The notes beneath the pieces are model-generated. The model was not told where the DNA came from, searched no databases, and saw only the letters and a list, made by a program, of their open reading frames with translations. From Methanosarcinales archaeon (GTDB lineage Archaea; Halobacteriota; Methanosarcinia; Methanosarcinales; Methanocomedenaceae): 41,769 nt of DNA. A program made the translations under genes and the position numbers. Position 1 is the first letter of the stretch, and each line of letters starts with the position of its first letter. This document shows, one piece after another, positions 21,406 to 32,316 of the stretch. The stretch is taken from assembly GCA_030600695.1 (NCBI GenBank), contig JAUVLO010000002.1, forward strand, positions 1-41,769. The letters run 5' to 3'.

Positions 21406-22065
21406 ATGTTACTTGATCTTCACATCCATTCCTGTTATTCCAAGGATTGCACCTCACCGGTAGCAGCAATCCTGGAACGGGCCATTAGGACAGGACTGGA
21501 CGGAATTGCTATTTGTGACCACGATACGGTGGAAGGATCGCTTGAAGCCAAGCGTCTGGTAAAGGAAATGGGTCTTGACCTGGTGATAGTTCCAGGGATT
21601 GAGGTAACAACTAACCGCGGTCATCTGTTGGTATTGGGCGCAGATGAAGCGTTCCCAATAAATTCTGACCCCAGCGACATTATTAAAATGGCCAGGGAGC
21701 ATGAATGTCTTATAGTGGCACCCCATCCCTTCAAGGGCTACCCAAAAAGTTTAGGCGATGTATCTGACCTGGACGTGGATGCTATCGAAGTCCTGAACTC
21801 CAGGTTCATCCTTGGTAAATTCAATGAACGGGCAGTGGAAATGGCCGAGACCCTGGGTCTGCCTATGCTAGGTAACAGTGATGCTCATTTTGTGGAGATG
21901 GTGGGCAGGGCTTACACTGAAATTGATGCTGAGCCGTCGGTTGAGGGCGTATTTAAAGCAATAAGGGATGGAAAGACTGTAGTACATGGTACCAGGACTC
22001 CACTTGGAGTCCAGTTCTACCAGGCATGCCTGGGGGTTAAAAGAAGGATGCTGAACTTGATATAG
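21406..22065 (+). CDS. PHP domain metal-dependent phosphoesterase
   Basis: LDLHIHSCYSKDC, ICDHDTVEGSLEA, APHPFKGY, GNSDAH. Confidence 0.92.
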   Translation: MLLDLHIHSCYSKDCTSPVAAILERAIRTGLDGIAICDHDTVEGSLEAKRLVKEMGLDLVIVPGIEVTTNRGHLLVLGADEAFPINSDPSDIIKMAREHECLIVAPHPFKGYPKSLGDVSDLDVDAIEVLNSRFILGKFNERAVEMAETLGLPMLGNSDAHFVEMVGRAYTEIDAEPSVEGVFKAIRDGKTVVHGTRTPLGVQFYQACLGVKRRMLNLI

Positions 22066-27240: not shown

Positions 27241-27420
27241 ATGGTAGCAAAAGTAAATGTTGATGAATGTACAGGATGCGGAACGTGTGTGGATGAATGC
27301 CCTGCAGAAGCCATTTCAATGAACGATAATGATATTGCTGTGGTAAATGCAGATGAGTGTACAGATTGTGGAATGTGTGTGGATGCATGTCCCACTGAAG
27401 CAATTACGGTAGAAGAATAG
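27241..27420 (+). CDS. 2x[4Fe-4S] ferredoxin
   Basis: Manual translation [59 protein letters not shown]. Confidence 0.95.
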
Positions 27421-27480
27421 GCACACAGATATATTTTCAAATCGGCCAACATATCAACGTGCTTGGTCTGAGAAAAAAAC

Positions 27481-27657
27481 ATGGCAGTAAAAGTAGATAT
27501 AGATGAATGTGTAGGATGCGGAACCTGCGTGGACGAATGTCCACAGGAAGCCATCTCAATGAATGACGATGACATTGCGGTTATCAGTGATGAGTGCACT
27601 GATTGTGGATTGTGCGTAGAAGCATGTCCTACTGCCGCAATTTCATCGGATCGATGA
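27481..27657 (+). CDS. 2x[4Fe-4S] ferredoxin (paralogue)
   Basis: Manual translation [58 protein letters not shown]. Confidence 0.95.
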
Positions 27658-28727: not shown

Positions 28728-28937
28728 GCCCGGTTGGGCTTGGATTGCCTTGGTTTTTTTATTTGTTTTATTCCACCTTGGGAAGTGCTGTGCCGGGTTC
28801 CTGAGTATCGACAGCCACAGCCCGAAGCGCAAACGAGCGTACTATTTTTTCAGTAGATTGTGAAGCAGTGTGTGGTACCAAATTCCATCCCCAACCTTTA
28901 TTACCCATTAACGTATCTATAATCCCCTTACAACATG

Positions 28938-29005
28938 CCAGTTTCATAGGCGGGATACGTCCCGCAGGAATGTGGCCCCTTCAAGGGCTGAACCGTGAAA
29001 CCTGG
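28938..29005 (+). ncRNA. Candidate structured 5' leader of rpl15e (three-way junction)
   Basis: CCAGUUUCA/UGAAAcCUGG closing stem, GCGGGA-UACG-UCCCGC hairpin, GCCC-CUUCAA-GGGC hairpin; TATA-like tctataat about 20 nt upstream. Confidence 0.5.
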
Positions 29006-29029
29006 AAACTAATTAGGAGATAACGAAAC

Positions 29030-29620
29030 ATGGCAAGATCAATGTATAGTCATATCAGGGATGCCTGGAAGAAACCTGACTCAACGTATGTACACGAACT
29101 CAGATGGCACAGGCTCCAGGAATGGAGACGTGAAGCCTCAGTACAGAGAATAGACAAACCCACACGGCTTGACCGGGCACGCAGCCTGGGCTATAAGGCC
29201 AAGCAGGGTATAGTCATGGTCAGGGCAGGTATCAGGCGGGGCAGTGCCCGGAAATCACGATATATCAGGGGCCGCCGGACCAAGCGTATGGGCATGAGCA
29301 AGATCACTCGCGGCAAGAGCATACAGCGTATTGCAGAAGAAAGGGCAGCACGCAAATTCCCCAACCTGCAGGTGCTCAACTCATACTGGGTAGGCGAGGA
29401 CGGTAAGCACAAATGGTACGAGATCATCATGGTGGACACGTCACATCCGGTCATCAAGAACGACCCAAAATTGAATTGGCTATGCCATCCCAACCAGAAA
29501 GGACGGGTCTTCAGGGGCAAGACAAGTGCCGGAACAAAGGGCAGAGGCCAGCGCAAACGCGGCAAAGGTACTGAAAAGACCAGGCCCAGCATAAGGTCCC
29601 GGGGCAATTTAGGTAAGTGA
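29030..29620 (+). CDS. rpl15e: 50S ribosomal protein L15e
   Basis: [60 protein letters not shown]. Confidence 0.96.
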
Positions 29621-29646
29621 GGTCTGTGACCTCACATCATTTTTTT
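29617..29646 (+). terminator. Intrinsic-like terminator overlapping the rpl15e stop codon
   Basis: GTGAGGTC-TGT-GACCTCAC perfect 8-bp stem, then T-run at 29640-29646. Confidence 0.65.
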
Positions 29647-29766: not shown

Positions 29767-30225
29767 ATGATTCATTATATCTATCTGCGCACAAGTGCAC
29801 AGGCCACGGAAGACCCGGAAAAGGTACGATCAGCCCTGAAGCTACTTCTCCCGCCTCCAGGACGATCCGCAAAAAAAGATTCAATAACCGTGCATGAGAC
29901 CGTTACTACAGGGTACCACGGCAACCCCATTATCGTGATGGAGGCAGAGCTAAAGCAAAACAAGGACTGCCAGTATGTGGTTGACCGTATAAGGGAACAC
30001 CTGGGGCCTGCAGGTATTTCCAGGCTTGCAGCCGAACTGCCCCAACGTGTGGATGATGACTGCAACCTGTACATCAGGTTTAATAAGCAGGAAGCATATC
30101 TGGGCAAATTGATGACTACCGCAAAATCCGATTCCATCCTTGTACGGATAAAAATAAAAGCCTATCCGGCCAGACCTGAAAATGCGATACAAGTCGCCCG
30201 GTCACTTTTAGGCGGGGGAGAATGA
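29767..30225 (+). CDS. RNA-binding protein, DUF54 / COG1325 (predicted exosome-associated)
   Basis: MIHYIYLRTSAQATEDPEKVRSALKLLLP; position ahead of rnp3 in the exosome superoperon. Confidence 0.85.
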   Translation: MIHYIYLRTSAQATEDPEKVRSALKLLLPPPGRSAKKDSITVHETVTTGYHGNPIIVMEAELKQNKDCQYVVDRIREHLGPAGISRLAAELPQRVDDDCNLYIRFNKQEAYLGKLMTTAKSDSILVRIKIKAYPARPENAIQVARSLLGGGE

Positions 30226-30941
30226 TCATGGGCATAATAAAGAGTTCGAACTTCTATGACCTTAACGTTCATGCACTGCCTGGCTATGCAGATTCCCCAT
30301 CAAGGATGATACTGGAAGCAAAAGATATGGGATATTCAGGCATCTGCCTGACCTCGATAAACACTGCCAATACGTTTAGTAGTACTGACATCACCATGCC
30401 AATACCAAGGGATTTTGAGATATATACCGGAATCGAGATTCAGGCGGATAATTTATCCAAACTGAACAAATATATAAACAGGTCAGAAAATAAAGTGGAT
30501 ATCATCAGTGTCAGTGGGGGGGATGAGGACATAAATCGCGGGGCTGTAGAGAATGGGCGCGTGGACATACTTGCCCACCCTGTAGACCAGGGTAAACCCC
30601 TGAACCATGTACTATCCAAAGCGGCGGCAGATAACGGAGTGGCCATTGATTTCAATATAGATGCCCTGATCCGGCACAGGGGGGCCAGCAGGGTCAGGAT
30701 ACTCAGTGCTCTCAGGCAGAATGCCAGGCTGGCACGTAAATATGACGCACCCATGGTCATCACCAGTAATGCCAGGTCACACTATGACCTGCGCGGACCC
30801 AGGGAGATGATGGCACTGGGAATGCTAATGGGTATGACCCGGGAAGAAGCATTACATGCACTATCAACGGTACCCAGCTCTATTATTAACAGGAACCGGA
30901 ATAACGATCGCATAATGGATGGAGTGGAAGTGGTACAATGA
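30222..30941 (+). CDS. rnp3: Ribonuclease P protein component 3 (Rpp30)
   Basis: FYDLNVHALP..., DILAHPVD, VAIDFNIDALIRHRGASRVRILSALRQNARLARKYDAPMVITSNARSHYDLRGPREM. Confidence 0.93.
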   Translation: MIMGIIKSSNFYDLNVHALPGYADSPSRMILEAKDMGYSGICLTSINTANTFSSTDITMPIPRDFEIYTGIEIQADNLSKLNKYINRSENKVDIISVSGGDEDINRGAVENGRVDILAHPVDQGKPLNHVLSKAAADNGVAIDFNIDALIRHRGASRVRILSALRQNARLARKYDAPMVITSNARSHYDLRGPREMMALGMLMGMTREEALHALSTVPSSIINRNRNNDRIMDGVEVVQ

Positions 30942-31495
30942 AGATCCTGCCCCCTACTTTGAGAGAATCGAACAGGTATCTGGCCATTTCCGTAACATCA
31001 GAAGGGGACATACCAAGGCGGGACCTTGTTAATGAAATACTCTTTTGTGCAGCGACACTTCTCGGGGATGCAGGGAGCAGTGAGATGGGTATCCGTCTCC
31101 TGTCGTTTGAGGAGAACAAGGGTATAATACAGTGCAGGGTAGATAGAGTATGGGAGACTAGGGCCGTGCTTGCAACCGTAACATCGATAAAAGGGATGCG
31201 GAGCAGGATAAAGGTACTGGGTGTATCGGGAACCGTTAGGGGAGCGACAGAAAAGTATTTACTAGCGCAAGACATAAATGAGCCCGAACCTGAGAGAAAA
31301 AGAACCCAAACAATAGAAGAAAGTAAGATGATCATAGATGTGGGGACTATTTCCGGTAAAATAGTAAACCGGAATAATAACGAAATTGATTTGTTGTCAG
31401 AGGACCCACATTCTTTAGAAATACTAAATCGTTCTAATACCAAGTATTTTGGTATTACGGTTTTTGATATTAAAAATAAGGAGATTGATGTATAA
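30938..31495 (+). CDS. rnp2: Ribonuclease P protein component 2 (Pop5), with C-terminal extension
   Basis: [35 protein letters not shown]; overlaps rnp3 stop. Confidence 0.9.
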
Positions 31496-32316
31496 TGCAG
31501 ATGGCACCTCAAATGGGATATGATAGAGCGATAACGGTTTTTAGTCCTGACGGCAGGTTGTTCCAGGTGGAATATGCCAGGGAAGCTGTCAAACGCGGAA
31601 CAACGGCAGTAGGAGTAAAGGCAGTAGACGGCGTTGTACTGCTTGTAGATAAACGAATAACAAGTAAATTACTTGAAGCTGGTTCTATTGAAAAGATATT
31701 CCAGCTTGATGATCATATGGGTGCAGCCACATCTGGTCTTGTGGCTGATGCCAGGGCACTTATCGACAGGGCGCGGGTAGAGTCCCAGATCAATAAAGTA
31801 TCGTATGACGAGCCCATTGGCGTGGAAGTCCTGGCTAAGAAGATCTGCGATTTCAAGCAGACCTATACCCAGTACGGCGGCGTCAGGCCATTTGGCACGG
31901 CACTATTGATCGCCGGTGTGGAGGATAGTGCGGCAAGGCTTTTCGAGACCGACCCCAGCGGTGCCCTGCTTGAATACAAAGCTACCGGAATAGGTGCAGG
32001 CCGGGCTGAAGTGATGGAGGTCTTTGAAGAGAAGTATACCGATGACATCAAGCTCACTGACGCAATTTTACTTGGTCTGGAAGCTCTTCATAATACAACA
32101 GAGGACAAGTTTGATGCTTCTACCATTGAGGTAGGTGTGGTTGAACTTGAAACCAAGCAGTTCAAGAAACTCAGTTCCGAAGAAGTTGCCGATTATGTCA
32201 ATGTGATACTGGAAGCCCATTCAGGGGAAGAAGAAACCGGAACTGAAGAAGCTGACGAAACTGAAAGTGAAGAGAAGACCGGTGAAGAGACCAAAGAAGA
32301 CACCGGGGAAGAATAA
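31495..32316 (+). CDS. psmA: 20S proteasome alpha subunit, acidic C-terminal tail
   Basis: [36 protein letters not shown]. Confidence 0.97.

Follow-up and report, generated by a model that had tools for sequence, protein, structure and literature searches.

In the archaeal DNA analysed here (the window, 41,769 nucleotides), the gene for ribosomal protein eL15 is preceded by an RNA element that is best explained as an autoregulatory eL15 leader of the RF03144 family with a two-state arm reaching the ribosome-binding site, a reading to which we assign a probability of roughly 0.55. The core of this element is already catalogued and is not new. Its outer arm, in which one 5' strand can pair with either of two downstream copies of its complement, suggests an undescribed addition to the known leader.

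A catalogued leader core upstream of rpl15e

The rpl15e gene occupies positions 29030-29620 of the forward strand, starts with ATG (29030-29032) and encodes a protein of 196 amino acids that matches PF00827 (1.5e-82) and archaeal eL15 chains in the PDB. By sequence and spacing, AGGAG at 29015-29019 is its probable Shine-Dalgarno sequence. The closest named relatives by eL15 are Methanosarcinales and ANME-2 cluster MAGs with 88-96% identity. At 29617-29645, just past the eL15 stop, the hairpin GTGAGGTCTGTGACCTCAC and a run of T behind it resemble a terminator, and the leader may hence serve eL15 alone. Further downstream (29767-32316) follow, in this order, genes for an RNA-binding PF01877 protein, RNase P p30, Rpp14/Pop5 and proteasome alpha. 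Elsewhere in the window, two tandem ORFs of 58-59 amino acids with ferredoxin-like CxxCGxCxxxCP motifs lie at 27241-27657, and a tRNA-Gly(tcc) of 102 bases, perhaps with an intron, is predicted at 21777-21878.

The initial annotation had proposed a cis-regulatory rpl15e leader serving either ribosomal protein autoregulation or ligand sensing, and had suggested an Rfam search. This search returned RF03144, the "eL15-Euryarchaeota ribosomal protein leader", at 28951-28999 of the forward strand (50.9 bits against a cut-off of 33.7, E 6.7e-7), matched over the full length of the covariance model (positions 1-48) and located 30 nt upstream of the eL15 gene of an ANME-2a/HR1-type archaeon. The element lies upstream of rpl15e in Euryarchaeota, compensatory changes seen in hairpin 2 maintain the core helices in relatives, and its membership in RF03144 is virtually certain. 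The same family was detected in 45 of 60 relatives, in 153 of 238 class members and in 205 of 394 phylum members searched, including both Methanosarcina acetivorans and Haloferax volcanii. RF03144 was described by Eckert & Weinberg 2020 (PMC7247131), who rate the family as a likely candidate on the basis of covariation, name eL15 as the likely ligand and stress how little is known about archaeal cis-regulation at the RNA level. Our literature search retrieved nothing on eL15 autoregulation beyond that study, and no data on eL15 binding or on an expression effect of the RF03144 leader. With the family match in place, autoregulation by eL15 is a supported prediction, and negative control of rpl15e by eL15 via the predicted leader appears very probable.

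The core consists of two hairpins and an internal loop. Hairpin 1 (GCGGGA-UACG-UCCCGC, 28950-28965) is followed by a helix at 28967-28994, the proposed eL15 site, which follows the Rfam consensus and comprises the GG/CC pairs, the internal loop AAUGU/GAA and the hairpin GGCCC..GGGCU; hairpin 2 (GCCC-CUUCAA-GGGC, 28975-28988) forms its tip. The most conserved part, missed in the initial annotation, is the internal loop, formed by AAUGU (28969-28973) and GAA (28990-28992) and closed by GG (28967-28968) and CC (28993-28994). The strands that had been assigned to a three-way junction, i.e., both hairpins, CCAGUUUCA (28938-28946) and UGAAAcCUGG (28996-29005), are present at precisely these positions, and the minimum free energy fold of 28920-29040 is this junction (-33.7 kcal/mol). 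The lone-sequence fold is unconvincing, because it exceeds shuffled sequences just modestly (z -1.83, 10/200).

Covariation analysis, also suggested at the outset, provided stronger evidence for the structure. Among 23 genus-level leaders carrying the outer 5' strand, compared with 500 shuffles, 90.3% of cells were paired (83.9% in shuffles) and 42 cells were double-changed (14.5 in shuffles); none of the 500 shuffles reached the paired cells and the covariation score of the structure, and this support collapsed when the structure was slid by one column. Hairpin 2 contributes most clearly, with 99.1% of cells paired and double changes retained, whereas hairpin 1 (92.7% of cells paired) is mostly invariant and GG/CC is mostly or entirely so. 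For the inner part of the closing stem, the yield was thin: its six pairs showed a single double change across the 23 leaders.

Two exclusive pairings of the outer arm

The 48-position RF03144 model stops at the core, and the outer strand, both of its complements and the pairing with the ribosome-binding site lie outside it. The words start codon, Shine and sequester do not occur in the main text of Eckert & Weinberg 2020 (PMC7247131). The switch strand UGCCAGUUUCA (28936-28946, forward strand) is the common 5' side of two helices, P1A and P1B, and its GUUUC is found in 15/15 HR1, 82/82 Methanosarcinaceae and 4/4 f15 unique leaders (f15 is probably Methanocellaceae). Copy A, UGAAAcCUGG at 28996-29005, forms the 3' side of P1A, which is the closing stem of the initial annotation and ends 10 nt 5' of the Shine-Dalgarno sequence. 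Copy B, GAAACaUGGCA at 29025-29035, forms the 3' side of P1B, where 10 pairs with 28936-28945 and one bulge engage the U and G of the start codon and leave its A bulged. P1A and P1B are mutually exclusive; the three-way junction survives as the minimum free energy fold but not as one with a fixed closing stem, and P1A has no counterpart in many relatives that possess the core.

The transcript 5' end matters for the arm, because the balance between P1A and P1B shifts with the 5' end that is assumed. The most probable TATA box is TTTATTAC (28897-28904, forward strand), which aligns with AACC-TTTAAAT of the Methanosarcinaceae leaders and would place the transcription start near 28925-28928. The TATA-like tctataat at 28915-28922, named in the initial annotation, is a less likely candidate, because at the usual archaeal spacing transcription would begin within the conserved 5' strand, near 28945. 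A scan for sigma-70 consensus promoters gave no hit; this consensus is not applicable to archaea.

In folding models, P1A forms with a probability of 0.88-0.94 in an RNA that ends before 29025. Once the start codon is included, P1B reaches 0.97-0.99 at 25-37 °C for 5' ends at 28928 or 28932 (0.97-0.98 at 37 °C), the balance is mixed for a 5' end at 28925 (P1B 0.54-0.94), and P1A is usually still favoured or level for 5' ends at 28920 or earlier (28900). The state held by P1B is calculated to be favoured over P1A by 2.8 kcal/mol. In RNA that begins at the predicted start site, P1B would mostly win as soon as the start codon has been transcribed. In per-leader folding of several Methanosarcina leaders, neither helix dominates.

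Recurrence of the arm and other possible routes to the ribosome-binding site

We compiled the features of 190 unique leaders, of which 103 contain GUUUC upstream of hairpin 1 and 87 do not. Copy A is present in 96 of the 103 leaders with GUUUC and in 4 of the 87 without, and copy B in 99 of 103 and 4 of 87, respectively, although these counts are not independent and, like all leader counts given here, are inflated by common ancestry. GUUUC occurs together with both copies in four families, i.e., HR1/ANME-2a, Methanosarcinaceae, f15 and the Methanoperedens family, the latter with all three elements in a single genus or member (L064). Leaders without GUUUC almost always lack both copies.

A rival account, close to that of the initial annotation, holds that eL15 stabilises the junction closed by P1A, that the resulting bulk blocks the ribosome and that copy B is a by-product of the sequence around the start codon. 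It would fit the prediction of P1A together with the core, the conservation of copy A alongside the 5' strand and the end of the P1A stem shortly before the Shine-Dalgarno sequence. The behaviour of copy B argues against it. Copy B is found at -5/-6 in HR1, at -6 to -8 in f15, at -10 in L064 and mostly at -16 to -19 or -8 in Methanosarcinaceae; it recurs at differing places relative to the Shine-Dalgarno sequence and AUG, but always near the ribosome-binding site; in relatives it adjoins or overlaps the Shine-Dalgarno sequence. In addition, Methanohalophilus has lost copy A yet kept copy B, and GAAAC near gene starts of the window occurs in just 1 of 47 cases, which is the eL15 gene itself. 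We regard this account as unlikely, though it is the strongest competitor of the two-state arm.

Even less probable is the view that GUUUC is kept as a promoter, start-site or protein-binding word, that its complementarity to the two copies has no role in the RNA and that the core alone exerts control. In Methanosarcinaceae, GUUUC is located 29-32 nt after the start of the TATA box in 76 of 78 leaders, about where transcription is expected to start, and lineages without GUUUC retain the core. In HR1, however, the distance from the box is 43-44 nt in 13 of 14 leaders, and GUUUC is present or absent along with its two complements. The sequence changes on both sides are also at odds with a promoter word: in L281, GUUUCA has become GUUUCG and both copies have changed to CGAAAC (GUUUCGU with ACGAAAC twice); in L064, GCGUUUCAC has two perfect 7-bp partners in a shifted register (GUGAAAC as copy A and GAAACGC as copy B); and in L142, UCCGUU is paired with AACGGA.

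Beyond such cases, covariation of GUUUC/GAAAC says little, because both words are nearly invariant, and at the flanking P1 positions it was weak and mostly uninformative. Within Methanosarcinaceae, conservation is 98-99% for the AU that follows GUUUC and 30-83% for most flanking upstream positions. Swapping partners between genera weakens pairing with copy B from -11.81 to -10.80 (fraction 0.0045 of draws) and also pairing with copy A (fraction 0.0165 of draws); the swap test for copy B inside Methanosarcinaceae alone was not significant (0.21).

In Halobacteria, a different pairing appears to reach the ribosome-binding site. Their leaders (e.g., L172, L181, L222, L241, L263) contain a hairpin CGCUGG..CCAGCG farther upstream, and its loop RCGGRC complements GYCCGY located 7-11 nt before AUG. 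Four covarying loop/site combinations were found: GCGGGC/GCCCGC (15), ACGGGC/GCCCGU (13), ACGGAC/GUCCGU (6) and GCGGAC/GUCCGC (5). Perfect matches are present in 39 of 56 sites, a count lowered by stray anchor sites among the 56, compared with 12.4 in shuffled sets (maximum 25 in 5000). This pairing, which the RF03144 model does not contain, would form a pseudoknot and, judged by sequence, is a clearer case of covariation than the window's own arm.

In leaders without an arm, the ribosome-binding site is nearer to the core, as expected if the occupied core must shut it directly: the median distance from core to start is 20 nt without GUUUC and 32 nt with it (190 unique leaders). In L231, L233, L221 and L229, which have no outer arm, the Shine-Dalgarno sequence is found 1-4 nt past the core (e.g., GAACC-UGAGGUGA). 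In these lineages, an occupied core could be enough to block the site directly; the outer arm would act on it from a distance. We consider it an even bet that the eL15 leader carries a true expression platform, with a 5' strand toggling, in the four families, between a core-side anti-sequestering partner and a partner that sequesters the ribosome-binding site, with the Halobacteria pseudoknot and the closer ribosome-binding site elsewhere as equivalents.

Likeness to 23S rRNA and a proposed mechanism

The internal loop of the leader core resembles a helix in domain I of 23S rRNA (RF02540 model positions about 251-290), in which AUGUGG faces C[CU]GAA; most 23S rRNAs checked also have GGG/CCC on one side. 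In most of them the strands read C[UC]GAAUCC / GGGA[CAG]AUGUGG, compared with CUGAACC / GGRAUGUGG in the leader; the internal loops are alike and differ by 1-2 nt, whereas the strands follow each other in circularly permuted order, with the hairpin loop at the opposite side. At positions 1751-1790 of L191 and at homologous 23S positions, the domain-I internal loop is closely similar, with permuted strands. A leader-like domain-I loop was present in 12 of 12 23S rRNAs checked, as defined by a loose pattern that was set after the match had been seen; both words of this pattern fall within 60 nt in 1.35% of shuffled 23S sequences. GAACC-UGAAACC, which we had taken to be a 23S segment and considered first as the element mimicked, is absent as such from the relatives' 23S rRNAs, and the AUGUGG/CUGAA helix was found instead. 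The likeness is suggestive, and the leader core may mimic a 23S domain-I element. In yeast, eL15 is associated with domain I (PMC12825303). Eckert & Weinberg 2020 (PMC7247131) saw a partial bulged-G likeness and called mimicry unclear; on sequence grounds, the 23S match sharpens the question that they left open.

The idea of a small-molecule riboswitch, for which the compact junction-like fold might speak, is hardly credible and the ligand-sensing alternative of the initial annotation finds no support, given that eL15 genes follow the element in the leaders examined, that its core resembles rRNA, that Rfam lists the family as a ribosomal protein leader, that no Rfam riboswitch family matches at the leader and that varied regulated genes were not seen in the leaders examined.

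For the two-state eL15 leader, we propose the following sequence of events. In the absence of eL15, P1A, which is made earlier, would keep the start codon open. Excess eL15 would bind the core because of its likeness to the presumed rRNA site of the protein, and the 5' strand would leave copy A once the core is bound, perhaps with eL15 also holding ACCGUGAAAC. Pairing of the freed strand with copy B would then cover the start codon and stop translation. Which state eL15 prefers is something that we infer; should P1B already be the ground state of the free RNA, closure of the site may not require eL15. Odds are roughly balanced that the predicted arm does toggle between copy A and copy B in this way.

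In bacterial ribosomal protein leaders that sequester the ribosome-binding site, a ribosomal protein binds an rRNA mimic and this site is closed as a consequence. The eL15 leader would work alike, but it is archaeal and unrelated in sequence, and its mechanism is deduced. If the proposal is true, an RNA switch for an archaeal ribosomal protein would be described, with a concrete, testable account of how such a leader acts on translation and a specific 23S element that it may copy.
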